Shown here piece by piece: positions 23,724 to 47,800 of a stretch of DNA of 64,000 nt. Every line of letters begins with the position of its first letter. Position 1 is the stretch's first letter. The stretch lies in IMG/VR virus record IMGVR_UViG_3300034104_003795, positions 90,370 to 154,369 of that record, one strand, 5' to 3'. Below the pieces are notes generated by a model. It saw nothing but the letters and a program-made list of their open reading frames with translations. It searched no databases and had not been told where the DNA came from. The translations under genes were made by a program, and so were the position numbers. This stretch comes from a virus.

Positions 23724-24121
23724 ATTACATTCGTATTAGTTCTACCATCTTGCCAATAATTCACACCACCATACCAAACAAATATTTCTTCATCCTTTTC
23801 AATTCGCCTATTGGAAACAAACTCAAATGTTTCTTTTTCTAAATTAGAACGCCAATATGCATTTGCACTTTCAGAATGATTATATAAACACCCATATCCC
23901 CATGCCAAAACCTGCTTTTGCCATTCCGAACCAGCACCTTGTGGCCAGTTAAAACGATAATCATTCATTAAGGGACTCATTTCTCCTTTTTGAATTTTTA
24001 AATCATATATAGGGCATTCTTCTATAATTTCATTCGCATCTATTATTTCATTTGCGAATATACCATATCCATGTACAGGACTTTTTGAAATATAAATTTT
24101 ATTTGGTGGATAAATTCTCAT
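23720..24121 (-). CDS. SET-domain protein
   Basis: About 133 aa from ATG at 24121; the first 18 residues of the longer frame overlap the upstream gene. SET motifs occur in order: GYGIFANEII (~18-27), CLYNHSESANAYW (the NHS pseudoknot element, ~80-92) and RIEKDEEIFVWYGG (GEExxxxYG, ~105-118). The family methylates protein Lys residues using AdoMet. Small viral SET proteins are known from algal viruses and phages. A target among host or virion proteins cannot be inferred. Confidence 0.8.
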   Translation of the reverse strand: MRIYPPNKIYISKSPVHGYGIFANEIIDANEIIEECPIYDLKIQKGEMSPLMNDYRFNWPQGAGSEWQKQVLAWGYGCLYNHSESANAYWRSNLEKETFEFVSNRRIEKDEEIFVWYGGVNYWQDGRTNTNVI

Positions 24122-24566
24122 CTTTGTATTTTTGAATATAATCTGAACATATTCCGCTGCATTTGGAAACGTCATCGTTGTATATTTCAGGCATTACGGC
24201 TATACTTTTCTTAATCGGTTGTTTACCAGGATAAACCCAAACATAATTAAACGATGTCAAAGTCATTGTATCTTCCTCATGCCAAAACCAATTAATATTG
24301 GCCGCCTCATAATCGTTTTCAGTAAGGTATTCAACAGCCTGCTTATTCTTACAATGTACCCATACTCTAGCACTTCTATCGTCTATCCAATTAAAATCTA
24401 TTTCGTATTGCGGACCATCATGCCCCAGCCACCATTTACCATCTATGTACCAAACATCAACCTCAACATCAAATCCCATTTGAAGTGCATCATCAATATA
24501 TTCTGGCTTATTTTCAGCTTCTTCTATTTTTCCGTTTACGTTTCCTCTATGTGATATATAAATCAT
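24099..24566 (-). CDS. Glycerophosphodiester phosphodiesterase-like protein
   Basis: 155 aa, shorter than the usual ~250. It opens with the catalytic HRGN motif (His6-Arg7), then AENKPEYIDDALQMGFDVEVDVW with the two acidic metal ligands, and LGHD (~46-49), the second catalytic His. These match the GDPD/PI-PLC-like barrel start; the barrel's later half is reduced. Similar short versions occur in bacterial polysaccharide clusters, fitting its place among glycosyltransferases. Confidence 0.75.
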   Translation of the reverse strand: MIYISHRGNVNGKIEEAENKPEYIDDALQMGFDVEVDVWYIDGKWWLGHDGPQYEIDFNWIDDRSARVWVHCKNKQAVEYLTENDYEAANINWFWHEEDTMTLTSFNYVWVYPGKQPIKKSIAVMPEIYNDDVSKCSGICSDYIQKYKDENLSTK

Positions 24567-31448: not shown

Positions 31449-32327
31449 TTACCCTAAATTCAATATCCTTTTTGCAAATACTAACAACTCGTCTCTACCT
31501 AGAGCAAACGCCTTATCATAAAACTCTTTCTTCTTATCAATTCTTACAATCTTGTCTATAAAAGAAGGTTTATTATTAATATAGTCTTCGGTTATGTATA
31601 TACCATCAAGAAGAACCTGAACTATCTCATGCCCATATTTACGTGCAACATCAGTACAATTCATAGCGTATGTATCTTCTGGACCATAACCACCAAATGA
31701 ATCAGGAATTCCTGTGAAATTCCAAAAACTTCTTGAATATAAAGTATGCATACCACATCCAAATTTTGCAGATGGAACAATTCTAACCGATATATCACTT
31801 ACATCCTGTGTATATGCATTTTTTACAGCATCTTCACTATGTGCATATCCTAATCCTGTATTTAATAAATTTTTATGCACAATTACATCCCAACTATCAT
31901 CCCACCAACGAGGAATGGATGGTGATACTATATACATATTATTTAACTGATATGATAAATTTAATTGGTGTTTCAATAAATGTTCATGTAAAAGTATATC
32001 CGCATCGCAGAATATAAATTGGTCATAATATAATTTGATACTTTCTCTTTTTTGTTGAGTAGTTCCCCACAATGAATTATCGGTGATTATTTCATTTATA
32101 TTTTTTATACCATCAAATAGTGTATTAAATTTTTCAATAAAATAATCTTGTTTTAATTCACTAGCTTCCCAATCAGTTAATTCTGGATTTAAATTAAGAC
32201 TAACTTTCATTGTAAAGTTGTCATTTGCATCTAAATAAGAAAGAGCCTTACGATATTGTACCATAAACCTTTCAAGCATTTCAATTTCATGTGGCATCAC
32301 ATGCATACAAAATAAAGTAGTCTTCAT
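31449..32327 (-). CDS. Glycosyltransferase (GT-A-like)
   Basis: 292 aa. FIFCDADILLHE (~105-116) supplies the metal-binding DxD, and a GGYGPEDTYAMN acidic motif (~218-229) fits the second active-site region, as in chondroitin-polymerase/GT-A-like enzymes. It is the last gene of the large glycan operon and starts one base before the next gene's stop. Donor and acceptor unknown. Confidence 0.75.
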   Translation of the reverse strand: MKTTLFCMHVMPHEIEMLERFMVQYRKALSYLDANDNFTMKVSLNLNPELTDWEASELKQDYFIEKFNTLFDGIKNINEIITDNSLWGTTQQKRESIKLYYDQFIFCDADILLHEHLLKHQLNLSYQLNNMYIVSPSIPRWWDDSWDVIVHKNLLNTGLGYAHSEDAVKNAYTQDVSDISVRIVPSAKFGCGMHTLYSRSFWNFTGIPDSFGGYGPEDTYAMNCTDVARKYGHEIVQVLLDGIYITEDYINNKPSFIDKIVRIDKKKEFYDKAFALGRDELLVFAKRILNLG

Positions 32328-33487
32328 TAGATATTATATTTTATTAGTTCGGTTTCCATATGATAAATTCTATTTACTTTAAATTTGAAAATACCAAACT
32401 GATATTCTCCTTTTTCTAATTGATTATCATCTAAAATTAAACTCAAATCAACTATAAAATTTATTGCTTCTTGTGTAATTTGATTTATATCAAATTCAAT
32501 TTCAATATCACTTTCAGTTGCGTTATTTATTTTATCAATCAATGGTACAATACATCCATCTTGTTGTTTTGAGATGAACTCATTTATTTTTTCTTGCGAT
32601 AAATCTGTTTTGATATTTGAACACCAAGGTTCTAAAAAATCCAATGCTTCTATTTTTGTGTTTTTTATGTTAAAACATATATCGTATTTATGTGGTATAA
32701 TCGGATGTTGGTATTCATCGTTTTTAACAAAATGTCCCCATTTTCTAATATAGTTTTTAAATGCACTATTTTTCATTTTATGAAATGCTTCATCTTTGGT
32801 TACCTGTTCAATTCCATCTTGAAATTGTCCACCTCTACATGTCAAATGATATACCAATGCTTCCCACGTTTGAATTATCTCATAACCATTTAAAATAAAA
32901 CGATTAAATATATCAGAATCTTCGTGATAAGAATGAAATCTCTCATCATGCATACCAATTGAGGTAATATCTTCTTTATATATTGCCCAAGGTGCAAATA
33001 TTCCTTTAGTTGTTTTTCCTTCATACACATATCTCATCTCATAAACAAACTTATCAAATTCTGCTTTTTTGAAATCTTCTGGATACATACCAAAATCTTC
33101 TACAATCTTTTCTAATCCCTTTGGATGTAGTGGTGGTTCTATACGAGTACCACTAACTACCGAAAGTGGTTTTAGATGTTTTAATATAGCATCATCAAAC
33201 CACTGCCCCATGTACATATCGGCATGAAACATACATACTATTGGTGTAGTTGCTGCTTCAATACATCTATTGTATCCATACGCAATTCCCTTCGGTGTAT
33301 CGGTATCATTAACCAAATACTTTATACGATTTTCATCTAACCATTCTTTTGTACCATCGTTATCCGCATCCACATATACTATAATTTCGTTTTGATGTAA
33401 ACTATTTGCTTTAATAGATTGAATACTATTTTTAAGATAACGAAGATTGTTTTTAGATGGTATGCAAAATGTAATTTTTCTATTCAT
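32327..33487 (-). CDS. GT2-family glycosyltransferase
   Basis: 386 aa. The N-terminal ITFCIPSKNNLRYLKNSIQS is the GT2 nucleotide-binding start, followed by VYVDADNDGT, MFHADMYMG (DxD-like) and HSYHEDSDIF (ED catalytic pair, ~195). The C-terminal ~120 residues are an extra alpha/beta region without a named domain. It overlaps its neighbours by single bases, so it is translated in a coupled series. Confidence 0.8.
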   Translation of the reverse strand: MNRKITFCIPSKNNLRYLKNSIQSIKANSLHQNEIIVYVDADNDGTKEWLDENRIKYLVNDTDTPKGIAYGYNRCIEAATTPIVCMFHADMYMGQWFDDAILKHLKPLSVVSGTRIEPPLHPKGLEKIVEDFGMYPEDFKKAEFDKFVYEMRYVYEGKTTKGIFAPWAIYKEDITSIGMHDERFHSYHEDSDIFNRFILNGYEIIQTWEALVYHLTCRGGQFQDGIEQVTKDEAFHKMKNSAFKNYIRKWGHFVKNDEYQHPIIPHKYDICFNIKNTKIEALDFLEPWCSNIKTDLSQEKINEFISKQQDGCIVPLIDKINNATESDIEIEFDINQITQEAINFIVDLSLILDDNQLEKGEYQFGIFKFKVNRIYHMETELIKYNI

Positions 33488-34179
33488 TATTTATTTTTTA
33501 AAAAAAGACAATCACCCCACTCTTTACCAGTATCATGATACTCTTTAAGTTCAAATCCATGTGGTTTTAAAAATTCAATCAATTGTTCTCTAGTACAAGA
33601 ACCTTCAAATCTTATTTTATCCTGTGTTTCTAACATAATACAATCTAAATGCTTTAATACTTCGGTAGCTCCACTTAAAACAATCAACTCAGCACCTTCA
33701 ACATCCATATTTAAGAAATTGTAAGTATTTTTATTTTCAACCAATTTATCTAATGTAATGGTTGGTACTTCAATTTCAGCAATATGTTCATACGGTACCC
33801 AAGATGAATCTCTACCCCACTCATTGATTTTAAAAATAGAATCAGTACCACCATCGTAGTTACTCAAATTAAAAGTAATAACACCATCTTCTTTATCGCT
33901 AACTGCGTAGTTATATGCTTTGTATCCTTTTAGAATTTGGGCTTCACTATCGTTAAAATAAGAATATGTAAGTGGTGAACACCAAGTAACATATCTACCG
34001 GTATTTAATGATTCGCTTAAATTGCTGAATCTAAATGGATTTGCTTCAACGAGTATCACATCTTTTATACCAGCTTTTACATAAGCTAACGTTTCACCGC
34101 CTTCATGTGCCCCAACGTGTAGAACACCATTTATTTTAATATTGTATTTTTCTAACAATTGGTTAAAATCTAACATCAT
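33487..34179 (-). CDS. FkbM-family methyltransferase
   Basis: 230 aa. VLHVGAHEGGETLAY (~19-33) is the AdoMet-binding motif I in the FkbM form, VEANPF is motif II, and LNMDVEGAELIVLSG (~155-169) the FkbM signature. These enzymes O-methylate sugars or other hydroxyls. In this cluster it probably caps or decorates the glycan. Confidence 0.88.
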   Translation of the reverse strand: MMLDFNQLLEKYNIKINGVLHVGAHEGGETLAYVKAGIKDVILVEANPFRFSNLSESLNTGRYVTWCSPLTYSYFNDSEAQILKGYKAYNYAVSDKEDGVITFNLSNYDGGTDSIFKINEWGRDSSWVPYEHIAEIEVPTITLDKLVENKNTYNFLNMDVEGAELIVLSGATEVLKHLDCIMLETQDKIRFEGSCTREQLIEFLKPHGFELKEYHDTGKEWGDCLFLKNK

Positions 34180-34190
34180 AGTTTATAAGT

Positions 34191-35567
34191 TTATTTATTG
34201 TAATTTTCTAGGTAATATTTTAAATCTTCAGGTGTACCTAATCCCCACATTTTTTCAATATTGAATGTTTTTATTTTTTTACCATCACCAATTGCTTCAT
34301 TGAAAACAGGACAAACATAGAATTCATTATTTACTCTTATATTTTTATTAATCATTTGTTCTGCATACTTTACATAATCAGAACCTTTAGCCCAATAGTA
34401 AACACCAACAGTTGCTATATCTGAAATTGGATTCTTCTCTTGTACTTCGGTTACATAACCATACTCATCCACTTTAGCAAATGACCATTTAGGATGAGTT
34501 GAATGAAATGAAAGGATACCACCATCAACTTTTTGTTCAATCATCTTATACATAAACTCATTTGAATCCCACTCTATAAATTGGTCAGAGTTTGCCATCA
34601 ATAAAGGTGCATCGGAATCAATCAATTCTTTTGCCAATAGAGTAGTACATGCTGCACCTTCTGTCAATCCATCAACTTCCACAATCTTACAATTAGGCGT
34701 AATTAAGTTTAAAAGGGTATCCAAGTTATACTTCTCTCTATGTGATTTCTGAACTACATAGATAAATGTAGCATCTATGTTTAGGTTATCAACTACAACC
34801 TGAATCATTGGTTTACCTTCCACATCAATTAGTGGTTTAGGGAACGTATATCCGGCTTGTTGAAATCTAGTTCCTGCACCTGCCATTGGGATAAGTACGT
34901 TCATCTTACCACCTTGCCATTTTGGTTTACTCATAACTTTCTTTTCGTTTAATTTGTTTACTATTTTTTCTAATGTCAAATCATGTGGATTATCTACTCT
35001 CAAAACATTTGCTCTACTTCTACTCGCAGCTAACAAACCGGGTGGTGAATCTTCTACAATTAACGTTTCTTCTGGTAATACACCCATCATACTCATAGCC
35101 TTCCAATACATTTCAGGATGTGGTTTAGAGTTCTTTACATCCTCATTAGAAAGGATTAAATCCATATACTCAATAAGTCCTATCTTTGATAACATAACCA
35201 ATACAGACCTTCTAATTGAATTTGAAGCACATGCTAATTGATAACCTCTATCTCTCAACTCTTTGAATACCGAAACCAATACATGATTAGTTTGTAATTG
35301 GGATATTGCCTCAATAGTTAAGTGTTGTTTTCTATACCAAATTTCATCATAGAAATCGGTATGTAACCCTTTATTTTTAGTAAGCATTTCAAGCTTTTGA
35401 GTTGTCTTTAATCCATCGTATATTGATAGATGTTCAGCTTCGGTAATTACATAAGAATTACCAGTTAGAATTTCGATTTCTCTCAATGCCTGGTTTAATG
35501 TATTGTAGTGTATTTCTTTTGCTTCAACTAGTACACCATCTAAGTCAAAGATAATTAATTTTGTCAT
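34191..35567 (-). CDS. Fused HAD phosphatase and sugar-phosphate nucleotidyltransferase
   Basis: 458 aa from ATG at 35567. N-terminal half: HAD hydrolase with IIFDLDGVLVEA, the SNS motif near 123 and VEDSPPGL (~170). C-terminal half: nucleotidyltransferase with NVLIPMAGAGTRF (the GxGxR signature, ~225), FPKPLIDVEGKPMI, MANSDQF and NEFYVCP. The C-terminal half is a paralog of the protein at 39465-40193. The fusion suggests dephosphorylation and nucleotide activation of one sugar or cyclitol substrate in sequence, as in heptose pathways (inference). Confidence 0.85.
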   Translation of the reverse strand: MTKLIIFDLDGVLVEAKEIHYNTLNQALREIEILTGNSYVITEAEHLSIYDGLKTTQKLEMLTKNKGLHTDFYDEIWYRKQHLTIEAISQLQTNHVLVSVFKELRDRGYQLACASNSIRRSVLVMLSKIGLIEYMDLILSNEDVKNSKPHPEMYWKAMSMMGVLPEETLIVEDSPPGLLAASRSRANVLRVDNPHDLTLEKIVNKLNEKKVMSKPKWQGGKMNVLIPMAGAGTRFQQAGYTFPKPLIDVEGKPMIQVVVDNLNIDATFIYVVQKSHREKYNLDTLLNLITPNCKIVEVDGLTEGAACTTLLAKELIDSDAPLLMANSDQFIEWDSNEFMYKMIEQKVDGGILSFHSTHPKWSFAKVDEYGYVTEVQEKNPISDIATVGVYYWAKGSDYVKYAEQMINKNIRVNNEFYVCPVFNEAIGDGKKIKTFNIEKMWGLGTPEDLKYYLENYNK

Positions 35568-35568
35568 A

Positions 35569-36264
35569 TTACCAAATTCCTCTATCAAACGGGTTTATAT
35601 TATATTCTTCAAAAATAGGATTTAATTCGGTTTGATATTCTGTTAAATTCCATTTACCTTTATTAATCGCAGTTGCTATGTATGGAAATACAAAACTATC
35701 ATAATGGAATATTCCTCTTTTTTTCTCAATACCATTCGTTGCTGAAAAATCTTTTTCATTCAACTTTATAGAATCTTCAAATTCATAAATTGTTAATTCT
35801 AAATGATTTTCTATTAACTCCTTAAATGTTTTAGTTTTAATAATAGTTGGTTGTATTGAAAATTTAGATAAATCATTTTGAACCAAAGTATCTTCAAATT
35901 CCGATTTTGTTCCACCCGAACCAGCATATAATAATTTTATACTATTAGCTTTATCGGTTAAAATATATTCATAATATTTTTCTAAATATACGTGAAGTGG
36001 ATTGGAATATAAAATCATATCTTCGTGAAAAAATAATATCACATCTTCATTTATTTTATCCAAACATTCTAAAATACGATTTGTATATTTTTTAGAATCA
36101 TCATATGTGATTTGTAAGCAATTTTCTGGAAGTGCCTTATCAATTTCATTAACACATACATAGAGTTTATAATCAGGCATAAATTTATTTAATTGCCCAA
36201 AAAAAGATGGCCATACATCTTTCATATCCGTATGCGTGTATATTACTAACGGTAGTTTATTCAT
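35569..36264 (-). CDS. Probable glycosyltransferase-like protein
   Basis: 231 aa from ATG at 36264; the longer frame to 36360 overlaps the upstream gene with unlikely sequence. LPLVIYTHTDMKDVWPSFFGQ opens a Rossmann-like fold, and VILFFHEDMILYSN (~66) could be the acidic metal site. It resembles unnamed glycosyltransferase-like proteins of polysaccharide clusters. Assignment rests on context plus these motifs. Confidence 0.55.
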   Translation of the reverse strand: MNKLPLVIYTHTDMKDVWPSFFGQLNKFMPDYKLYVCVNEIDKALPENCLQITYDDSKKYTNRILECLDKINEDVILFFHEDMILYSNPLHVYLEKYYEYILTDKANSIKLLYAGSGGTKSEFEDTLVQNDLSKFSIQPTIIKTKTFKELIENHLELTIYEFEDSIKLNEKDFSATNGIEKKRGIFHYDSFVFPYIATAINKGKWNLTEYQTELNPIFEEYNINPFDRGIW

Positions 36265-36979
36265 AAAAATAAGATATTTCTTTTGAGTATTGAGAATATG
36301 GGTCCATGTAAGGTCTTGTTTTTCTACCATGTGTAAATTCATCAATAGAAGAACCAACATCTACATATTGGTTATTTGGATTAGCCCTATACATTTCATC
36401 TATTAGTATTTCAGAAACAGGACCCGCAGATACAAAAAATGTTTGATTCTCTAATTGGGATACATATTCAATTAGTTGTGTAATATAGTCCTCACCATAA
36501 TCTAACCAATATCTTATACAATCATCTGGAAATGGAAATATTTCATTTACTTTAAATGGAAAATTTTCTTTCCTAGCTCTATGATTACATATAACATATA
36601 CACTCTTATCTAATGTTTTATAAAACTCATACATCTTTTGATAATTTGAATTTATCCAAAGATTTGCAAAAGTTTTATTTGAGTTTTGAATTCTATCTGA
36701 TAAGAAAGTATAATCATCAATACTATCCGAATGAGCTGATATTGCATAATGGTAATTGGTTTCGGTATGTTCCAATGATTTTAATAAACCTTCACCAACT
36801 TTATTTAATCCAATTGGAGTAGTCCATCTATCAACTGCAAATGCTTGTGAATTAGTACCAATTGCATTACCTTTCATCAAACCAACTTCACCGTCAGCAT
36901 ATCTTGCATAAGCAAAATTTGTATCCGATTTTATAAGATTGGTGTAGTATTCAAAATCTGTTTGAAATTTATTCTGCAT
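36257..36979 (-). CDS. GT-D-type glycosyltransferase-like protein (DUF1792-like)
   Basis: 240 aa. FAYARYADGEVGLMKG (~23-38) matches the R(F/Y)xDGE start of the GT-D (DUF1792) fold, and FFVSAGPVSEILIDEM with YVDVGSSIDEF (~180-215) its AGP...DVG C-terminal signature. These enzymes add hexoses to bacterial surface glycans. It is controlled by the wecB operon and also by an internal promoter at 37036-37067. Confidence 0.7.
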   Translation of the reverse strand: MQNKFQTDFEYYTNLIKSDTNFAYARYADGEVGLMKGNAIGTNSQAFAVDRWTTPIGLNKVGEGLLKSLEHTETNYHYAISAHSDSIDDYTFLSDRIQNSNKTFANLWINSNYQKMYEFYKTLDKSVYVICNHRARKENFPFKVNEIFPFPDDCIRYWLDYGEDYITQLIEYVSQLENQTFFVSAGPVSEILIDEMYRANPNNQYVDVGSSIDEFTHGRKTRPYMDPYSQYSKEISYFYE

Positions 36980-37973
36980 CTAATATCTTTTTAATTTTTT
37001 CCGCTGCTCTACCGTCTCCATATGGACAAGGTTTACAAATATACGAATTCTTTTCCAACTCACCAAATAATTCTTTAAGTTTAGTTGGTTCTTCGCACAT
37101 ATAAAGATGACCGGTTTTTATACCTTCAGGTCTTTCGGTTGTTTTTCTACACACAATTATTTTCTTATTAAAGAAAGAACCTTCTTCTTGCAATCCACCA
37201 CTATCGGTAACTACCAACTTACAATCTTTAAGAATATTAATCGTTTCATTGTGCGTTAAAGGTTCTACGATATTAATATTTGTTAGTAAATTCTTATGCT
37301 TTTGTACGTTTGGATTTGGATGAATCGGTAATACAAATTTGTATTGTGGATAATCAATTGCTAACTGATTAATTACATTAAACCATTCATCTAACCAATG
37401 ATGATTTTCTCTACGATGCATTGTTACTAGAATAGTATCACCATAACTACCTTTATCATACTTCATAAGATTATCCAATACAGTATTCCCAACTATATGG
37501 ATATCTCCTTTTACTCTTTCCGCATCTAAATTTTCAGCAGAAAGCTGTGTTGGTGCAAAATTAATATCTGCTAAACGAGCTATCATCTGTCTATATCCTT
37601 CTTCAGGATATGGGTTTTCTAAATCGTAACTCCTTAACCCAGCTTCCATATAATATATCTTAATACCTCTATGATAAGCTGCTAATGCACATGCAAAAGC
37701 GGAAGCCGTATCGCCTTGCACCAACACACCTCTAAATTTGTAATTTGGAAAATATTCCATACAACTAATCATAATAGAATCTAATCTAGTATAACGAAAG
37801 GATTCTTTTATATTAACTCTAAAATCAACTTTTACATCCGAAAGTAAATCTTCATGTTGACCTGTGAATAAAAGTTTATATTCTTTCTTATCCATAATAT
37901 CAATCAATGGTTTTACTTTCAACCATTCTGGTCTAGTACCAAAACATATTAATATTGGGTCTTTCTTATTCAT
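36969..37973 (-). CDS. wecB: UDP-N-acetylglucosamine 2-epimerase (WecB type)
   Basis: 334 aa. CFGTRPEWLKVKPLI (~10-24) is the family start; later GDTASAFACALAAYHRGI, EAGLRSYDLENPYPEEGYRQ (with the catalytic Glu and Arg) and TDSGGLQEEGSFFNKK complete the GT-B-like fold. It converts UDP-GlcNAc to UDP-ManNAc. The overlap with the RuBisCO-like gene (8 bp) links the two in one translation unit. Slightly shorter than the usual 370. Confidence 0.88.
   Translation of the reverse strand: MNKKDPILICFGTRPEWLKVKPLIDIMDKKEYKLLFTGQHEDLLSDVKVDFRVNIKESFRYTRLDSIMISCMEYFPNYKFRGVLVQGDTASAFACALAAYHRGIKIYYMEAGLRSYDLENPYPEEGYRQMIARLADINFAPTQLSAENLDAERVKGDIHIVGNTVLDNLMKYDKGSYGDTILVTMHRRENHHWLDEWFNVINQLAIDYPQYKFVLPIHPNPNVQKHKNLLTNINIVEPLTHNETINILKDCKLVVTDSGGLQEEGSFFNKKIIVCRKTTERPEGIKTGHLYMCEEPTKLKELFGELEKNSYICKPCPYGDGRAAEKIKKILDAE
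37036..37067 (-). promoter_or_regulatory. Internal Bacteroidota-type promoter within wecB
   Basis: TTTG (37067-37064), 20-nt spacer ending TTCG, TATATTTG (37043-37036), a perfect match to the window's consensus although inside a coding sequence. It would boost expression of the genes from 36979 leftwards. Confidence 0.55.
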
Positions 37974-39156
37974 TTTTATTTACTCCCCATTTTTGAATTG
38001 CTTTATTGTATTCTCTACCATATTCTTTATCTATACTCTGCCTCATAGCTTTTGCACCAGCCAAAGTACCATCAGGATGCCCATGAAGTGCACCACCAAC
38101 ATTTGCCATATAATCAATACCAACTTTATCAGTTACCCATTGAGTAAGACCAGGATGGAAACCACAGCTTAATGCCGGCATTACACCATATTGGTGCAAT
38201 ACTTTCATTGAATCAATTACCTCATCTTCAGGCCATTTGTAATATCCACCAATCATTCCGGCGTGAATAAAATCAACACCCATCATACCTGCTAACTTAC
38301 AAATTACCGTCCAATCAATATAATAAGCGTGATTTCTATTGGTTAGAATTTTATCACCACTTTTTTGAAAATGTACAAATATTGGTAAGTCTAATTCTCT
38401 TACAGCCTTATAAACCCCCATACCACACCAAAAATTAATATGAACACCATTACCACCCAACTCATATACTCTCTTTACTCTATCTAAAATATGTGGATAA
38501 TCTGAATGAATAGATACACAATAAACTACATTTTTATCTTTTAAATATTCTGCAATCAATGGTACTCTTTCTTCAATTGTACAAAAAGCGGGATTACTCA
38601 TAATCTCATCTTCTTTAATGAAATTAACGCCACCTTCTACTAATTCTTTAACCATCTCTAATAATGTCTGCGGAGTGATACCAATTTTAGGTTTCACAAT
38701 TGCACCAAACAACGGTTTATCAAATGTTTTAGTGTATTCTCTAATACCTTTAATACCAAATTTAGGTCCTAAAAATAAATCTTCAATATGTTGTGGAAAC
38801 CAGATATCTTTAACAGCACATTTTGTAATATTATCAATATCCATCTGCCCACCCATAATATTTACCAACAAATGTGCAATCCCATCCGTTTTAAAATCAA
38901 TGTTTATAACAGGAAACGCTACCTTAACTAATCCATTATTAATAGATTTAAGCTCATCTTCATCTCCCAATACTAAACAACTATTTCTCTCAAATAGCTC
39001 ATCAGTTTCCCATTGATTTCTTACATTTGGATTACCTACACTTTGGCCTATTGCCAAATTCCAAGCGGCATCTCTTAAATTAGTTTCAGATGCCAAATCA
39101 TAAGTAACAATAAAGTACTTTTCTATATCTACTTCTTTTCTAAAAATATTTACCAT
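37966..39156 (-). CDS. RuBisCO-like protein (form IV)
   Basis: 396 aa, full RuBisCO large-chain length. Conserved: VKPKIGI with Lys155 (K175 equivalent); NFIKEDE with Lys181, Asp183 and Glu184 (carbamylated-lysine and Mg ligands K201, D203, E204); His262 (H294) and FIHAG His298 (H327); PALSCG Ser330 (S379); and GGALHGHPDG near the end. Missing: Arg295 (Phe263 here), His298 (Ser266), and the loop-6 Lys334 region (Tyr). So metal and enolate chemistry are likely retained but CO2 fixation on ribulose bisphosphate is not. Flanked by wecB and a cupin in the glycan operon, it probably rearranges or decarboxylates a phosphorylated sugar. Confidence 0.88.
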   Translation of the reverse strand: MVNIFRKEVDIEKYFIVTYDLASETNLRDAAWNLAIGQSVGNPNVRNQWETDELFERNSCLVLGDEDELKSINNGLVKVAFPVINIDFKTDGIAHLLVNIMGGQMDIDNITKCAVKDIWFPQHIEDLFLGPKFGIKGIREYTKTFDKPLFGAIVKPKIGITPQTLLEMVKELVEGGVNFIKEDEIMSNPAFCTIEERVPLIAEYLKDKNVVYCVSIHSDYPHILDRVKRVYELGGNGVHINFWCGMGVYKAVRELDLPIFVHFQKSGDKILTNRNHAYYIDWTVICKLAGMMGVDFIHAGMIGGYYKWPEDEVIDSMKVLHQYGVMPALSCGFHPGLTQWVTDKVGIDYMANVGGALHGHPDGTLAGAKAMRQSIDKEYGREYNKAIQKWGVNKNE

Positions 39157-39157
39157 A

Positions 39158-39478
39158 TTATATAACGTATTTATCGCCAGGTATTGACGGAGTTTTTATA
39201 ATTAAGACTGTACAATCTTCTAAAAAGATTGGGTCAGCAATTTCGTATGGGTTTAAAATAAAGATATCACCTTCATTTAATTCTTTGTCTTGTATGGTCA
39301 TTTTTCCACTAACCAAATAATTTATTTCAGTACCAGCTTTGTGATAATGAGTATCCCATTTTTCACCTTTAGTGTGGTGTTTATAACAAACCTCAAACTG
39401 GTCTGTTTTAAAAGCAGTTGGTTCAAAGTTACCAATAAACCATCCACCTTTCATGTCTTTCATTTTAAGAATGTCCAT
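39158..39478 (-). CDS. Cupin-domain protein
   Basis: 106 aa. The cupin motif 1 GEKWDTHYHKAGTEINYLVSG (~38-58) gives HxH-x5-E metal ligands, and motif 2 is the weaker DIFILNPYEIADP. A small single-domain cupin in a sugar cluster could be an isomerase, epimerase or sugar-sensing protein. It is 1 bp from the RuBisCO-like gene and overlaps the nucleotidyltransferase by 14 bp. Confidence 0.8.
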   Translation of the reverse strand: MDILKMKDMKGGWFIGNFEPTAFKTDQFEVCYKHHTKGEKWDTHYHKAGTEINYLVSGKMTIQDKELNEGDIFILNPYEIADPIFLEDCTVLIIKTPSIPGDKYVI

Positions 39479-40193
39479 ATAATTGTTTGTATTTATTTAA
39501 ATCCTCTGGTACACCAATTGGCCAATGTAAGTTATAAAAGAATGGTAATATTTTTTTCCCATCTTTAATAAGATAATTGTATGATGGTGCTATATAAAAT
39601 TCGTTATTATACCTTTCACCAGATTCTATCATTTCTTTTGCCGAAGATACGAAATCTTTTCCATGTTTCCAAAAATGTAATCCATTAGTTGCAGTATTAC
39701 TGATTACAATCTTTTCTTTAACTTCAGTAACCTCACCTTGTGGGTCTAATTTCATATATGAATTTTTCTTTGATGATGATATAAATGCACCTAATATACC
39801 ATCTGCTTCATTTTTGTCACAAAACTCTAAAAGTTTATTAACATCAAAATCATGTATCATTTGGTCACAATTAACAATAATCAATGGAGTATCTTCATCT
39901 ATATAATCACTAGCTAACAATGCGGTACATGCTGGTCCTTCTGTTAATTCATCTATTTCAATTACAACCGAATCGGGTTTTAGTGATTTTAAAAAGGTTT
40001 GTAAACTATTTCCTACTGAATGCTTTTTTTGAATTATAAAAATATGTTTCCCATCTATATTTAGATTTTCAACAACTGATTGTACCATTGGTTTTTTGTT
40101 TACCGGAATAAATGGTTTTGGTATCGTATATCCTACATCGGAAAATCGTTTACCTTCGCCGGCCATCGGTATTATTACATTAACTTTTCTCAT
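39465..40193 (-). CDS. Sugar-phosphate nucleotidyltransferase
   Basis: 242 aa. NVIIPMAGEGKRFSDVGYTIP (GxGxRF, ~5-25), then KPFIPVNKKPMVQ, PLIIVNCDQM (~105) and NEFYIAPSYN mark a nucleotidylyltransferase that activates a sugar-1-phosphate. It shares motifs throughout with the C-terminal half of 34191-35567, so the two are paralogs, probably with different substrates. Confidence 0.85.
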   Translation of the reverse strand: MRKVNVIIPMAGEGKRFSDVGYTIPKPFIPVNKKPMVQSVVENLNIDGKHIFIIQKKHSVGNSLQTFLKSLKPDSVVIEIDELTEGPACTALLASDYIDEDTPLIIVNCDQMIHDFDVNKLLEFCDKNEADGILGAFISSSKKNSYMKLDPQGEVTEVKEKIVISNTATNGLHFWKHGKDFVSSAKEMIESGERYNNEFYIAPSYNYLIKDGKKILPFFYNLHWPIGVPEDLNKYKQLYGHS

Positions 40194-40196
40194 TTG

Positions 40197-40793
40197 TTAC
40201 GTTTTAAATGCTTCTATGTTTTTATAATGACTCAAATAATTGTTATATTTTTGCCAATAAATGTCAACTCTATCTTTTTCTAGATTTTTGAGAATGAAAT
40301 TGATTTTTTTATCAAATCCAAGCTCAAACAATCTATTTGTAAATGCAACTTCTGCGTGTGGTACATTAAAATCTGAAAATGTAAATAATTGAATCATATC
40401 ATCAACATTTCCTTCCGATAAATAATCTACCAAATATCCGGCATTATGTTGGTGATATGCTAGAAAATTTAAACAATCACTTTTAAACGATTTAAATATT
40501 TCTTCACAATTGATTGGGAACAAATCATATCTCCACTTTACAACTCTATCGTATCCCAGTTCTTTTGCCTTTATAAATCCATTTAAAGACGATACTCTTT
40601 GTAAATTTAAATTACCAACTCCAACTATTTCTGGTCTAGGGCTATATACAACCACATCGTTTTTATCCGGATAACAATAGGTTGGCTCCCCTTCCCATGT
40701 TGAAAAAATAATAGGAAATGGTTTCCAATCATTTTTCAATTTTTCTATATTATCACAAATAGTGCTACCTTGTATAACAATTGCCGTTTTCAT
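40197..40793 (-). CDS. WavE-like glycosyltransferase (short)
   Basis: 198 aa. AIVIQGSTI, FPIIFSTWEGE, GVGNLNLQRVSS and DRVVKWRYDLFP repeat the four-motif WavE pattern seen at 24563-25336. It is shorter than that paralog, so its acceptor domain may be reduced. Part of the glycan operon. Confidence 0.7.
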   Translation of the reverse strand: MKTAIVIQGSTICDNIEKLKNDWKPFPIIFSTWEGEPTYCYPDKNDVVVYSPRPEIVGVGNLNLQRVSSLNGFIKAKELGYDRVVKWRYDLFPINCEEIFKSFKSDCLNFLAYHQHNAGYLVDYLSEGNVDDMIQLFTFSDFNVPHAEVAFTNRLFELGFDKKINFILKNLEKDRVDIYWQKYNNYLSHYKNIEAFKT

Positions 40794-40795
40794 GT

Positions 40796-41566
40796 TTATT
40801 TTTCATATACAAGTTTCCAACCTTTCATTCTTTGGTTATGAAAATATTCATTCATCAATGCTCTAAATGGTACACCTTCCACACTTCTCTGATTTGATTC
40901 CCATAGTGAGTTAGCATCGCCACCATATTGTGCTCCTTTTATACTTCCCCACATTTGTTTATCATTCTTTGGATGTGGTGGTACAAATGTTTTAATTCCC
41001 GCATACTTCTGCAACATATATGAGAAGTGCATATCTTCACCACAGGTATTATATTTAGATTCAGGTTGTTCTCTCCACATATGAGATAACCATTCCTTTT
41101 TAAAGAACCAACTATGCCCAACCAAATCAACTTCTAATGTATGTTCATTATTTCCACCTTCAGGCCAACCAACTCTAGCATATGGTTCGTAGTATGATGA
41201 TTGTTCCGGTGGAAGTGGTTGTGGATAAATTAATCCAACCGTACCCAATAGTCCTTCATTCGTTTTCATTGTATTCATGCAATTCTCTAACCATTTTGAA
41301 CCAGGTATAGTATCATCATCAAAAATACAAACATATGGATTTTTAGCCATAAATGCAAAAGCAAATCGTGCCCATACACCGAAGTTGTAATTACAATAAG
41401 CACCCGCTATTTCAGTACCAATATCATAATTAATCAGGTCATTATCACCAGGATTATTATACCAAAAAAGTATTTCATCCGGCTGAACCGTTTGGTTTCT
41501 TAATGCCTCTAATTGTTCATTAAGATTTTCCGCTCTTTTGTAACCATTTAATATAACTGTTATCAT
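40796..41566 (-). CDS. GT2-family glycosyltransferase
   Basis: 256 aa from ATG at 41566, which overlaps the upstream stop (ATGA). ITVILNGYKRAENLNEQLEAL is the GT2 start, CIFDDDTIPGSKW (~86-98) holds the DDD metal motif, and NTCGEDMHFSYML the catalytic ED. It probably extends the same glycan as its neighbours. Confidence 0.82.
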   Translation of the reverse strand: MITVILNGYKRAENLNEQLEALRNQTVQPDEILFWYNNPGDNDLINYDIGTEIAGAYCNYNFGVWARFAFAFMAKNPYVCIFDDDTIPGSKWLENCMNTMKTNEGLLGTVGLIYPQPLPPEQSSYYEPYARVGWPEGGNNEHTLEVDLVGHSWFFKKEWLSHMWREQPESKYNTCGEDMHFSYMLQKYAGIKTFVPPHPKNDKQMWGSIKGAQYGGDANSLWESNQRSVEGVPFRALMNEYFHNQRMKGWKLVYEK

Positions 41567-42564
41567 AATTCTGTCATTATTCTTTTTAACCAAAGTTCTT
41601 TTGAAAAACAAGCTTCATAATTAGCCTTTGCCATTTCTGAACATTCATTGTAAAATTGTTTGTCATCTCTCAATCTTATTGCCAATTCTCTTGCACTTTC
41701 TAAATCATTTACAGCTACCGATAAGGATGGGTGACAAAGTAATTGTGTATCTACATCTTGATTTCCAATACAAGGGATACCAAAGTATGCACAATTTAGG
41801 GCAAACGTACCAGCTGCTACCGTTGGCATCATATGAACTGCGTATTTGAATGTTGATAATACGGTCATCCATTCACTCCACATTAATCTTGGTAAGTGAG
41901 TTAAGTTATCAATTACATTTTCATTCTCTCTCATAGCATGAGATGTTTGTGCCCAAATAGGAACATCAAAGTTACCAGCTATCATATAACTTTCAAACCC
42001 ACCATACCATCTTGCGAAGTTACCACCTATAATTGCCTTATCTTCTTTTGTTGGTACTATGTCTTTGATTAGAGTATCAATCATCAATGTACCGATAGGT
42101 CTTACTTTTTTATTAGGAAACAATCCCTTATAATAATATATATCTGAATCATTGTGCGTAAAGATTGAATCACATGATTGTAAGAAATTAAAGAAATAGA
42201 TTTGGTCTGATATAGTATAATCATTATACCACCAATGCGGTCCTTCTTGAATATAATGGACTTTCTTATTACCTCTTTCCTTCAATTTACCAACTATATC
42301 TTGTTGTAATAATTCTGAAAATGGATTAATACCATCTATAATTTTACTTCCCTCTGCACTTAAAAATACTTTGCCTTTTGGAAATATAATAAACACATGG
42401 TCATAATTAATCAAATGTTTATCCGCACCAAATAGATGAATATTATAATGGTCTGCGTCTAAAGCGTGCATCCAAGCAAATTCGGTTCTCATATTTGGAT
42501 GATGTGCCGGTATTTTACCAATAAACCCCATTTCAGTAAGGAAGGCTATTTTAGATTGTATCAT
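41563..42564 (-). CDS. GT-B-like glycosyltransferase
   Basis: 333 aa from ATG at 42564. IAFLTEMGFIGKIPAHH opens the N-terminal Rossmann domain; the C-terminal domain has YAVHMMPTVAAGTFALNCAYFGIPCIGN, the donor-binding region of GT-B enzymes. No named family. It overlaps the upstream GT2 stop by 14 bp. Confidence 0.65.
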   Translation of the reverse strand: MIQSKIAFLTEMGFIGKIPAHHPNMRTEFAWMHALDADHYNIHLFGADKHLINYDHVFIIFPKGKVFLSAEGSKIIDGINPFSELLQQDIVGKLKERGNKKVHYIQEGPHWWYNDYTISDQIYFFNFLQSCDSIFTHNDSDIYYYKGLFPNKKVRPIGTLMIDTLIKDIVPTKEDKAIIGGNFARWYGGFESYMIAGNFDVPIWAQTSHAMRENENVIDNLTHLPRLMWSEWMTVLSTFKYAVHMMPTVAAGTFALNCAYFGIPCIGNQDVDTQLLCHPSLSVAVNDLESARELAIRLRDDKQFYNECSEMAKANYEACFSKELWLKRIMTEL

Positions 42565-43180
42565 ATAAAGCGTTTTGTTTTTCTTGTCTTTCAATTTGCT
42601 TATGATGATACAAACAATAAATTTCTTCCTGAGGTAATATTGATAATGTATTATATCCCGCTATCCTTTCATGTACCTTACCACTCCATTCTATTTCAGA
42701 AGTTCTTCTATAAATACGAGTTTGATAGTCAGGAAAATTTACCCAACCGTTTTCATTAACTTTCCATCCCCATTTCTTAATATGTTCGGCAGTTAAACCA
42801 TTCACCGTATTAATTCTAGGTACGAAGAAAAGGTCTACATCTTTATTATAATCTAAAAAGTTGTGAATATTTTCAACCAAATATTCGGATGGCATTTCAT
42901 CTGCATCAATTTGAAAAATAAAAATACCGTTTGCATTATTTTTTAAATTATTCTTAAATGATGCAAAATCTTTATTAAGAGGAAATGAAATTACTCTTAT
43001 ATTCTTATGTATTTGTGAGATTATATTTAAATAATCTTTTATCTGCGATGTTGCAGAATCGGAATCATACTGAACCAGTATTTCATCTTCGGATTTTATC
43101 CTAGGTTGTAGGAAATCAACTAAAGTTGTGATTTCATTTATTTCATTACAAACTGTAATGGCGTATGTAACATTTATCAT
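42551..43180 (-). CDS. GT2-family glycosyltransferase
   Basis: 209 aa. VTYAITVCNEINEITTLVDF (~4-23) is a GT2 start, and FIFQIDADEMPSEYLVEN (~86-103) gives the DxD motif in the GT2 DADE form seen in surface-glycan transferases. The WSGKVHERI motif (~166) is typical of the beta-glycosyltransferase subfamily that follows. First gene of the glycan operon, with its promoter at 43186-43217. Confidence 0.82.
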   Translation of the reverse strand: MINVTYAITVCNEINEITTLVDFLQPRIKSEDEILVQYDSDSATSQIKDYLNIISQIHKNIRVISFPLNKDFASFKNNLKNNANGIFIFQIDADEMPSEYLVENIHNFLDYNKDVDLFFVPRINTVNGLTAEHIKKWGWKVNENGWVNFPDYQTRIYRRTSEIEWSGKVHERIAGYNTLSILPQEEIYCLYHHKQIERQEKQNALYDTI

Positions 43181-43277: not shown

Positions 43278-44843
43278 TTATCGTATTTTAAACCCAATAC
43301 CAGAAAATGATATGTTTGTAGCGGAAAATGTTTTTTCAGAATTAAACTTATTATATAACACCTTTAAACTACCACCCTTTAAACTTCTATAATTTGTCCA
43401 ATCGTTGTTCACACCGGTATCGTATATCGCAGTACCTGCATTTGCTAATATTGCCGATTTTAATTGTGCAGGTGTTAATCTAGGATTTGCTTCTAAAAAC
43501 AAAGCACATACACCTGCTACTTGTGGAGATGCCATAGATGTACCACTAATATTACATTGTTTATATGATGCGTTTAAGTAATAGGATTGTCCACTAAATC
43601 TATTTGTATTTGAACATGCACTCATAATATCGGTACCCGGTGCGTATATTGTTACACCTGGACCTGTTTCCGATGATGTTGATTTTTGGTCATTATTTGT
43701 ATCATAAACCGTACTATCAATATTACCAACAATAAACGCTTCATCATCAAACGGAGAAGAACCTCTATGATAATAAGTTGCACCAGTACCATCGTTATAA
43801 TAATTATTATAATCTGTCCCACTAGGAACATCAATTTTATGAGAACGATTACCAGCTGCTATACATACTATAATTCCAGCATCAATCATTTCTTGAATAT
43901 CAGTATCAACCGATGATATTCTTACATTTGATATAGATGATGCCGCTGACATTAATCCAAAATTATTTATTCTTTCAGTATTAGTATCAATAGATGCTCC
44001 CGTATATGATGTTCCTCTATAATTAATTTCGGTTAATGCTGCAAATGAAGTGTAATATCCCCAACTCATATTAACTACGGTTGGTCTTTTTACACCTGTT
44101 GTAAAATTCAATGACTTATTATTATGCCAACCTTTAATCGCATCAAATGCATATGTTGTAGAAATACCAGTACCACTATCGCCACTTCCCTCTAATCCAC
44201 TTATTTTTTGAGCATATACTCTTGCCTTTTTGGCCCAACCATATGTTTTACCCGCAGCTATACCGGCACAATGTGTACCATGTCCATCAAAATCTCTATA
44301 ATGATTTGCATTTTGTGTGAATGAAACTCCACTTTCACTTGACCAGTTAATTTGTTGTACTCTACTTACTCCATTTTCATCTTGAAATTCCGGATGGTCT
44401 ACTTGTAATCCACTATCTTGAATTACTACATCCACACCGTCACCGGTTAATGTATAATTATAGTTCAAAGTAGTAGTTGTTCCACTGGCATATACATTTG
44501 AGGTAGAATTACATCGTATCAATCCCCAATTGATATAAGTACCACTATCGGATGTTGTTTTTGTAAAATCACCTGTTTGAATTGCACGATGTCCTATTTG
44601 AATATCAGTTCTATGTTCAGGTGGAATCTCTACAGCCAGCACTCTATCATCTAATTTTAATTGCTCAGCTTCTTCATCTGTCAGCATGTACCAACATTGA
44701 CGTAAAGATGTAGGTCTTTCGTTTGTAAATTCTACTCTACGATTTGGAATGTAAAGTTTGCCACCATCGGTATCACTTTCTATATCATTCCAAAACCCAT
44801 CGTAATCTACATCCTTTTTTAAGATAACGTTATATTCTCTCAT
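43278..44843 (-). CDS. Subtilisin-like serine protease (peptidase S8)
   Basis: 521 aa. Catalytic triad in order: Asp143 in VVIQDSG, His191 in DGHGTHCAG and Ser436 in SGTSMASP, with the oxyanion Asn332 in CIAAGN. The N-terminal ~75 residues form a small separate domain, possibly a propeptide or inhibitor-like fold. There is no signal peptide. It lies 6 bp after the collagen-like tail-fibre gene, so it is probably a virion or assembly protease acting on tail proteins or host surface polymers. Confidence 0.9.
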   Translation of the reverse strand: MREYNVILKKDVDYDGFWNDIESDTDGGKLYIPNRRVEFTNERPTSLRQCWYMLTDEEAEQLKLDDRVLAVEIPPEHRTDIQIGHRAIQTGDFTKTTSDSGTYINWGLIRCNSTSNVYASGTTTTLNYNYTLTGDGVDVVIQDSGLQVDHPEFQDENGVSRVQQINWSSESGVSFTQNANHYRDFDGHGTHCAGIAAGKTYGWAKKARVYAQKISGLEGSGDSGTGISTTYAFDAIKGWHNNKSLNFTTGVKRPTVVNMSWGYYTSFAALTEINYRGTSYTGASIDTNTERINNFGLMSAASSISNVRISSVDTDIQEMIDAGIIVCIAAGNRSHKIDVPSGTDYNNYYNDGTGATYYHRGSSPFDDEAFIVGNIDSTVYDTNNDQKSTSSETGPGVTIYAPGTDIMSACSNTNRFSGQSYYLNASYKQCNISGTSMASPQVAGVCALFLEANPRLTPAQLKSAILANAGTAIYDTGVNNDWTNYRSLKGGSLKVLYNKFNSEKTFSATNISFSGIGFKIR

Positions 44844-44849
44844 ATTTTA

Positions 44850-47800
44850 TTAATGCAATTGTACCCAAGCCCCATTCGCGTATCCCATAAATTTATGAGT
44901 AGTTGAATTGTATATCATATCTCCATTCGCAGGAGTTAAACTTCCAGTTTGTACATCAGTAAATGTTGCCATTCTCATTGGTGATTGCGTTACAATTACC
45001 GCAGTACCAGCTGTTAAGTTTAAGTTAGTTGCCGATGTTATTTCAGGTGTACCGGTTGCATATATGTTAAATCCAGATGCACTTATCGCACCACTAACAA
45101 ACATAGAACCTGTTAGTTTCATTTCTGCTCCATCGAATGTGAGAGTATTACTTACAAATAATCTTTCAGGTGAATTTTCGTATCTAACTAACCCATTATT
45201 TACACTTCCAGTTACAGCTAATAGGGATGCAACTCCAGAAGTTCCAGATGTACCATTCGTACCAGATGTGCCATCAACACCACTTGTACCAGTCACACCA
45301 GATGTACCAGATGAACCAAATGCAGTACCGTCTAAACCATTTTTACCAGATGAACCAGACGTACCATCAGAACCATTTGCTCCAGGTGCACCATTTGTTC
45401 CAGATGTACCACCACTACCAGCAGTTGCTCCTGCTGCGGTTAAACCACTTGTACCAGAAGTTCCAGAGCTACCACTAGTACCCATAGTACCGTTTTCTCC
45501 ATTTAATCCCGATGAACCAGATGAACCAATAAATGTTCCATCTTTACCAGATGTACCAGATGACCCAAAAAATCCAGATATACCAGATGTACCGGAAGTA
45601 CCATCTGAACCATTTACACCAGATGTTCCATCTTTACCAAATCCAGATGAACCAGATGTACCAGATGAACCAACAAATGTTCCATCTTTACCGGAAGTAC
45701 CGGATGTACCATCTTTACCAGATGAACCTGCACTACCCGCACCACCACCGGTTCCTGCGGTGATTGTTATATGTCCACTACCAGGTGTATTAGTTACAAC
45801 CGCCCCACCGGTAAATGTTATTTGATTTACACCACTAATAGATGTAGGTCCAACATCATCATTTATTGTTAATGCAATAGATGTACCAGAACTACCACTT
45901 GAACCGGATGTACCGGCTGTTCCACCTATACCAGTTATTCCAGATGAGCCAGATGTACCATCGGTACCAGGTGCCCCAATACCATTAAGTCCAGATGTTC
46001 CAGATGAGCCATCTTTACCAGATGTACCAGATGTACCGCCACTTCCACTTACTCCTGCGGTTCCAGATGAACCAGAAGTTCCACCACCACCATCTTTACC
46101 AGATGTACCAGAAGTACCATTTGAACCCCCACCGCCTACACCACCGGCTACAGTAAGTGCAACGGTACCGCCACCACTATTCGTAGCACGAATTGTATTA
46201 TCCAATGTTAATGTGGTTGTTGCAGCTGCGGAGAATGAACCACTATTAATTGTAAGTCCACCACCACCACCACCGGTTGTTATAGTTACTTGTCCGCCAC
46301 CATCATCTGCAACAACGGCTCCATTGAATCGTATTGTACGAACTGAACCAAAAGAACTACCACCTTGTTGAGATACTGTTATCGCTCCAAATGAAGATGT
46401 AGCTATTATTCTAGATATATCATTAACTCCACCAACCCAAGCATATCCTTGTGGAAGTGAAGCAGATAAAGGTCCACTTACTTGTAGAGAACCTGTAATT
46501 TGTATATTATTTGTTGTTGCGAATACCGAACCGGTTGCCGCAAATATTCCAGTACCACTACCAGCACTACCAAATGAAGATGTTGCTACTAAAATTGTTC
46601 TATTATTAGGACCACCTACCCAAGCATATCCTTCTCTTAAAGATGAAGTAATTGAACCACTAATATTCAAATTTTTACCAAATGTAACATCAGCATCGTC
46701 AAATGCAACTGCTTCAAAGGTTCTAAAATGTAGTTCATGATAGAGATTACCAGCTTTTGTATAAAGTTCTCCTTTGGCATTAGTACTTTTATCAGTCCAC
46801 AATATTGAAGAATTTTCTTCCTGTGCTCCTCTAGAATCAGAACCTAAATCTAAAATTTGAACGGTAGGACCATACAACATACCACCATATTGTGTTTTAC
46901 CAATTCGTATAGAACCGGTAATATGCAGAGAACCACTAATATGTGCAGAACCAGTATAAGGGAATACAGTTGTTGTTAAACCAGATGTTCCCGCAGTTCC
47001 ACTTATTCCAGATGAACCAGATGAGCCAGAAGTTCCAGATGAACCAGAGCTTCCAGAAGTTCCTGATGAACCACTTGTACCATCTAAACCGGTTGTACCA
47101 TCTTTACCGGATGTACCAGAAGACCCACTTGAACCAGATGTTCCAGAACTACCACTACTTCCAGATGTACCAGATGAACCAGAAGTTCCAGATGAACCAG
47201 AGCTTCCAGAAGTTCCAGATGAACCACTTTGACCAGGTGCACCTGCCGTATTTATATACCATGAAGTTATACCAGTACCACTACCTGATGTAGTTGTTAT
47301 ATTAACCACTAAATCACCTGTACCGCTGTTATAAGATGTTACAGTTCCTTCTAATACATTTGATGCATTTTCAGAAATAATAATAGCCTGTCCAGGAGTC
47401 CATTGTAATCCAGTTCCTATTGTGAAATTTTTAGAACCAGTGCTTATATTGTTTGAAGTACTCGATGTTGATGAGAATCTATCACCATTTTGTCCAGAAG
47501 TTCCAGATGAACCCGATGAACCAGATGTACCATCTTTACCAGATGTACCAGATGAACCGCTACTACCAGATGTTCCAGATGAACCGGAAGTACCACTCTC
47601 TCCAGAAGTTCCAGATGAACCTGAACTTCCAGAAGTTCCAGAACTACCACTACTTCCTGATGTGCCATCTTTACCAGATGTACCAGAAGAACCGGATGTA
47701 CCTGAACTTCCTGATGTGCCATCTTTACCGGAAGTACCAGAAGAACCACCACTACCAGCAGTACCAGCAGGTCCACTAGCTATTGAAGTTGTTTTTCCTA

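Follow-up and report, generated by a model that had tools for sequence, protein, structure and literature searches.

Why would a phage carry a RuBisCO-like protein (RLP) among glycan genes, and which reaction would it catalyse there? The question arises from a 396 aa open-reading frame with an ATG start (37966..39156, minus strand) in a 64,000-nucleotide stretch of viral DNA, referred to here as the window (positions 90,370 to 154,369 of IMG/VR record IMGVR_UViG_3300034104_003795). The full record is viral, 273,997 bp long, and contains a phage DNA polymerase, a tail fibre and other phage genes. A prediction made from the letters of the window alone had described a form IV RLP in a phage glycan operon, carrying out an undescribed enolization, isomerization or decarboxylation step in the making of an unusual sugar.

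Fold and active-site residues of the window RLP

The window RLP matches PF00016 across the catalytic domain (E=6.1e-33), and its AF2 model (pLDDT 93.2, pTM 0.91) aligns to RuBisCOs and RLPs with Z scores of 40-44, the top match being the form III RuBisCO 2cwx (Z 44.3, rmsd 2.2, 378 residues aligned) and the other best match MtnW 2oem (Z 44.0), which bears out the proposed full-length form IV protein. K181, D183 and E184 form the metal/carbamate centre (RuBisCO K201, D203 and E204), K155 and K157 correspond to K175 and K177, H262 to H292 and H298 to H327, so the residues listed as kept in the original prediction (Lys181, Asp183, Glu184, Lys155, His262, His298) map as claimed. The predicted loss of the substrate-phosphate residues and K334 was also right in that RuBisCO R295, H298 and K334 are replaced by K265, D268 and Y305, but Lys265 at the R295 position could still bind phosphate. 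Both RuBisCO phosphate sites are partly retained (K265, H298 and S330; G332, G354 and G355), so that a bisphosphate substrate or a decarboxylation could still be accommodated.

With the fold and the metal/carbamate centre in place and the carboxylation residues lost, the window RLP is a form IV protein in the broad sense, and it lies outside RuBisCO proper (forms I-III), as the loop-6 Lys334 is absent and the protein scores below both curated RuBisCO models (178.8 bits, cut-off 497.45; 162.9, cut-off 438). The NCBIfam cut-offs for RuBisCO, MtnW and OiaX were reached neither by the window RLP nor by three cellular members tested. Comparison with close relatives gave dN/dS values of 0.05-0.08, and the gene is under strong purifying selection.

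A separate clade with an invariant active site

We placed 46 members of the family (24 phage, 21 cellular and the window RLP) in a tree with 41 reference RuBisCOs and RLPs, sampled without 1ykw, 2qyg and the IV-GOS and IV-EnvOnly sequences of Tabita 2007. All 46 group together with SH-aLRT 100 on a stem of 0.98 changes per column. The sampled RuBisCO, MtnW and OiaX sequences lie outside this clade, and the OiaX group forms a separate clade that is itself supported at 100; the phylogeny proposed with the original prediction therefore puts the protein in a clade of its own, outside MtnW and OiaX. Four Bacteroidota-phylum sequences of 436-453 aa, presumed to be from Chlorobia and taken as candidates for IV-Photo (Chlorobium/Rhodopseudomonas type), place elsewhere.

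The equivalents of K175, K177, K201, D203 and E204 are kept in 46/46 members. Nine further residues (N42, P43, C113, E182, Q264, S266, M301, Y305 and C331) are present in every member and in 0/32 aligned family members outside the clade, and H239 and G103 are nearly as clade-specific. At RuBisCO positions, the clade substitutes Tyr for the CO2-polarising K334 (Y305, 46/46 members), Gln for H294 (Q264), Cys for G380 and Gly for N123 (G103). That K334 and H294 are lost speaks against carboxylation, whilst an active site invariant between archaea and phages speaks for a reaction common to the whole clade; the family very probably consists of non-carboxylating enzymes that all share one reaction. 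The R295 position is Lys or Ser in the clade (K265 is Ser in five members) and the position of window H298 is Gln in 9/46, so the claim of a kept His298 holds for the window RLP but not for the clade as a whole. In a phage sub-group (L027, L042, L048, L058, L078 and relatives), Ser at the R295 position occurs together with Gln at the H327 position. The H298Gln and K265Ser variants may mark two substrates within the clade.

Distribution across viruses, bacteria and archaea

RLP relatives were found on 169 IMG/VR contigs by a single-sequence scan and on 338 by a profile-based scan. A database with one genome per species yielded 24 cellular loci, 23 of which belong to the clade, the 24th, from Desulfosporosinus, being MtnW-like. 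The viral setting originally described is correct for this record, but the family extends to these ca. 23 cellular loci, in SAR11, other alphaproteobacteria, Azospirillum, Legionella, Pacearchaeota/Nanoarchaeia/Woesearchaeota (DPANN archaea), Verrucomicrobiia, Elusimicrobia, Patescibacteria, Crocinitomicaceae and Sphingobacteriales; among the short MAG contigs, some may be phage sequence binned in error. The family is patchily distributed, being present in 2/197 SAR11-order genomes and 4/22 Legionella. Four SAR11 loci (L087, L093, L095 and L097) carry two RLP cassette subtypes beside the same mrp-like, hflK, hflC and degP-like genes, which suggests a recurrent SAR11 insertion site for these cassettes.

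There was no RLP match among 50,697 GenBank phage records, the window RLP received no PHROG assignment, and a search of BFVD gave no convincing RuBisCO-type fold (best TM 0.41, generic TIM barrels). Among the plasmid matches listed, identity to the RLP was <32%, and these were OiaX-like or other RuBisCO-family genes.

Gene order in the window

The genes around the RLP, all on the minus strand, overlap or abut (gaps of -14, +1, -8 and -11 bp). Directly upstream of the RLP lies a small cupin gene (39158..39478; 106 aa, GGWFIGNFEP...H-H-E motif, weak PF12973 match), which overlaps the gene of a stand-alone nucleotidyltransferase (NTase; 39465..40193; 242 aa, PF00483/MobA-like); on its other side the RLP gene meets that of a WecB-type UDP-GlcNAc 2-epimerase (36969..37973), which scores above its NCBIfam cut-off. 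As these genes overlap or abut, RLP, NTase, cupin and epimerase form a single translation unit, just as had been proposed. The gene run of the RLP also includes a HAD (beta-phosphoglucomutase-like) domain fused to a second nucleotidyltransferase (34191..35588), and a GT2-type glycosyltransferase, an FkbM methyltransferase and an unassigned open-reading frame (31449..34179). Upstream is a run of glycosyltransferase-like open-reading frames (40197..43180, minus strand; GT2 at 40796-41611 and 42551-43180). A 155 aa protein with a compact TIM barrel of the GDPD fold is encoded ca. 14 kb from the RLP (24099..24566, minus strand). At 43278-44843, the window also encodes a subtilisin-like serine protease, adjoining a collagen-like GSSGTSG tail-fibre gene (44850-48101).

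Conserved partner genes

We surveyed the neighbourhoods of 81 phage RLP loci, drawn as 80 best matches rather than as a random sample, with neighbours grouped by strict clustering. The NTase occurs in 78/81 of these loci, the GDPD-fold protein (~150 aa) in 69/81 and the cupin in 58/81, the cupin also being found in several cellular loci. The linkage of RLP with NTase and cupin in a glycan locus was therefore anticipated correctly and the set recurs, but it had been drawn incompletely, as the GDPD-fold gene was overlooked. The UDP-GlcNAc 2-epimerase, which had been counted as part of the set, is present in 6/81 phage loci and we rejected it as a core partner. The NTase is also found in 21/23 cellular loci, both exceptions lying on short or truncated contigs, and is the most constant partner of the RLP.

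Full GDPD-RLP-cupin-NTase sets are present in Azospirillum, Elusimicrobia, Patescibacteria and an alphaproteobacterial single-cell genome, and the linkage of the RLP to NTase, GDPD and cupin spans viruses, bacteria and archaea. The adjacency of RLP and NTase persists from DPANN archaea to Legionella to phages despite reshuffled gene order. The model of the GDPD-fold protein (pLDDT 95) has nearly only GDPD or related PLD proteins as top matches (Z 11.2 to 1o1z) and keeps the catalytic pattern HR...EN...ExD...HD, with H6, R7, E18, N19, E35, D37 and H49 invariant; by fold and catalytic residues it is a GDPD member, a putative hydrolase of glycerophosphodiesters. The archaeal and verrucomicrobial RLPs are adjoined by full-length PF03009 proteins that match it. 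As controls, the MtnW-like Desulfosporosinus locus had none of the partner genes, and six plasmid loci of the OiaX group lacked the NTase/GDPD/cupin set and instead had acid-sugar catabolic neighbours, including a DUF1537-type kinase in 6/6.

Two cellular settings have further features. In Azospirillum oleiclasticum (L100:3870-9565), the GDPD-RLP-cupin-NTase genes are followed by open-reading frames which, read by eye, resemble CysD/CysN of sulfate activation, a hint that this may be a sulfated glycan locus. In loci L091-L097, including L092 (SAR11 and Nanoarchaeia), a second, divergent NTase lies near the RLP; in SAR11 its GxGxRF motif is replaced by AGPNxxF, and it is perhaps a non-catalytic or altered partner.

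RLP and HAD as possible alternative companions of the nucleotidyltransferase

Across loci with the cupin family, 79/80 have the NTase and 59/80 the RLP. Where the RLP is absent, the NTase usually carries a HAD as a fused domain, either of the beta-phosphoglucomutase-like type (71 cases across all loci) or at the C-terminus (19 cases). Among 185 unique NTases with full context, 97 have an RLP and no HAD, 67 a HAD and no RLP, 5 both and 16 neither, and NTases that are 66% identical occur with either partner. The window carries both NTase kinds, one stand-alone with the RLP and one HAD-fused. The apparent exclusion is strong by Fisher's test (p 5e-33, a value inflated by relatedness), and a phylogeny-aware independent-pairs test had too few evolutionary changes for significance; we take the alternation as suggestive. 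It fits an RLP that stands in place of a sugar-phosphate mutase or phosphatase feeding the NTase. A phage locus without RLP (L240:8001-11395) encodes a cupin, a KdsC-like HAD, a PfkB-like open-reading frame and an NTase fused to an RpiB sugar-phosphate isomerase.

Proposed reaction and alternatives

Our preferred reading, to which we assign a probability of roughly 0.55, is that the RLP enolizes and rearranges a phosphorylated ketose and supplies the NTase with the precursor of an activated surface-glycan unit. A phosphorylated ketose drawn from host metabolism would be enolized at the carbamylated-Lys/Mg2+ centre with K155 as the base and rearranged, by a carbonyl shift or an epimerization, without CO2 fixation, giving a phosphomonoester which the neighbouring NTase would turn into an activated building block linked to an NDP or CDP. 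Additional steps, in tailoring or in the handling of phosphodiesters, would fall to the cupin and the GDPD-fold protein, and glycosyltransferases of the phage would attach the activated unit to the surface glycan. The RLPs described so far enolize, isomerize or decarboxylate phosphorylated substrates (PMC6302742), and because of this known chemistry we rank enolization or isomerization as the likeliest class and decarboxylation as its main rival. Of the three steps originally put forward, enolization or isomerization thus fits, and the choice among them is one that we infer.

A decarboxylating enzyme would resemble the OiaX group (3-oxo-isoapionate-4-P decarboxylase/transcarboxylase), the RLP removing or transferring a carboxyl group of a phosphorylated keto-sugar acid and trimming the acid to the NTase precursor. 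The OiaX group shares the fold and the metal centre, is nearest in the tree, although by a weak joining branch (79), and like the clade mostly keeps the H327 and S379 equivalents, the R295 position being conservatively Lys in the RLP. This route is nonetheless unlikely, as the window RLP scores 139.7 against an NCBIfam OiaX cut-off of 700, and 10/10 OiaX-group members keep K334, R295 and H294, all of which are lost in the clade. OiaX-group loci are catabolic, with acid-sugar kinases and TRAP transporters, whereas RLP loci hold a biosynthetic NTase cassette; no DUF1537-type acid sugar kinase was seen among the scanned window genes or the recurrent RLP neighbours, nor an acid-sugar dehydrogenase among the recurrent cassette genes, in phage and cellular loci. 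MtnW (DK-MTP-1-P enolase, form IV-YkrW) matches the RLP in fold (Z 44 to 2oem), in the K175/K201/D203/E204 centre, in the N-x-GG-x-I-H-G-H-P (NAGGGIHGHP-type) P1 motif and in having no carboxylation residues. We hold it to be very improbable that the RLP is a variant MtnW or an R. rubrum-type 5-methylthioribulose-1-P isomerase, a sulfur-salvage phage gene placed in a glycan region by chance, as MtnW models score far under their cut-offs (149.3, cut-off 409; 125.3, cut-off 513.6) and the clade is separate from MtnW in the tree. MtnW moreover has Lys at the N123 position (4/4) where 46/46 clade members have Gly, K177 is kept only in the RLP, Q264, Y305 and C331 are unique to it, and its constant partners are the NTase and GDPD, not methionine-salvage genes.

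The RLP might instead act after the NTase or on a phosphodiester, tailoring a nucleotide-linked substrate or a glycerophosphodiester substrate released by the GDPD, for which speak a GDPD-fold partner nearly as frequent as the NTase and a P1 side opened by the loss of the T65/W66 and K334 equivalents. The Legionella loci, which pair RLP with NTase and have no GDPD or cupin within 8 kb, make this order of events distinctly unlikely, and we know of no RuBisCO-superfamily member that acts on a nucleotide-linked substrate. It is also quite improbable that the RLP is a general auxiliary gene, carried along with mobile glycan genes and sharing no pathway with them: phage glycan loci and the SAR11 hypervariable site do gather many genes, and so few of the SAR11-order genomes sampled carry the family, but the RLP-NTase adjacency outlasts reshuffling from archaea to phages, and the active site is invariant with a dN/dS of about 0.05.

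Form III RuBisCO (P. horikoshii 2cwx, T. kodakarensis) is closest to the RLP by structure and by profile score (178.8 bits) and shares K175, K177, K201, D203, E204, S379 and G403, whereas the RLP is without the K334, R295, H294, N123 and T65/W66 equivalents and reaches no RuBisCO-family cut-off. In pathway logic the cassette is like the HddC/GmhB-type heptose pathway (HAD phosphatase and PF00483 NTase), in which a sugar-phosphate enzyme feeds a related NTase in glycan loci, except that the RLP would replace or supplement the HAD step.

Relation to earlier reports and implications

RuBisCO-family genes in phage contigs have been reported before, as 'rbcL' of landfill phages, which clustered with 'RbcL-like' proteins and were assigned to CO2 fixation, and as an 'rbcL' function in random IMG/VR viruses (PMC12607003); the accessible part of that report holds no clade, active-site or cassette analysis. 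The GOS survey placed 65 marine sequences in new environmental RuBisCO groups outside the known forms (PMC1821046), which, unlike the clade here, were reported without function or gene context. Either of these sets may include members of the RLP clade. The literature searched, which covered few subscription papers, did not mention the clade, its active site or the gene cassette, and we regard the clade as a previously undescribed subfamily, separate from the RuBisCO, MtnW and OiaX sequences placed in the tree.

To our knowledge, few RuBisCO-superfamily reactions are settled: carboxylation, MtnW enolization, MTRu-1-P isomerization and OiaX-type decarboxylation/transcarboxylation. We put at about even the chances that the clade adds a new one that serves biosynthesis, not salvage, catabolism or carbon fixation, and provides, as part of a four-gene cassette (GDPD, RLP, cupin, NTase) found in phages, SAR11, DPANN archaea and Proteobacteria, the sugar-phosphate-type compound from which a nucleotide-activated glycan unit is made. 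As the clade has an invariant active site of its own and a constant NTase partner, such a further reaction is directly testable, the NTase giving a coupled assay. Viral 'rbcL' calls should therefore not be taken as evidence that phages fix carbon. The RLP clade points to a surface-glycan building block common to phages and their hosts, and suggests that the RuBisCO fold has been reused for an unusual surface sugar rather than for carbon fixation.
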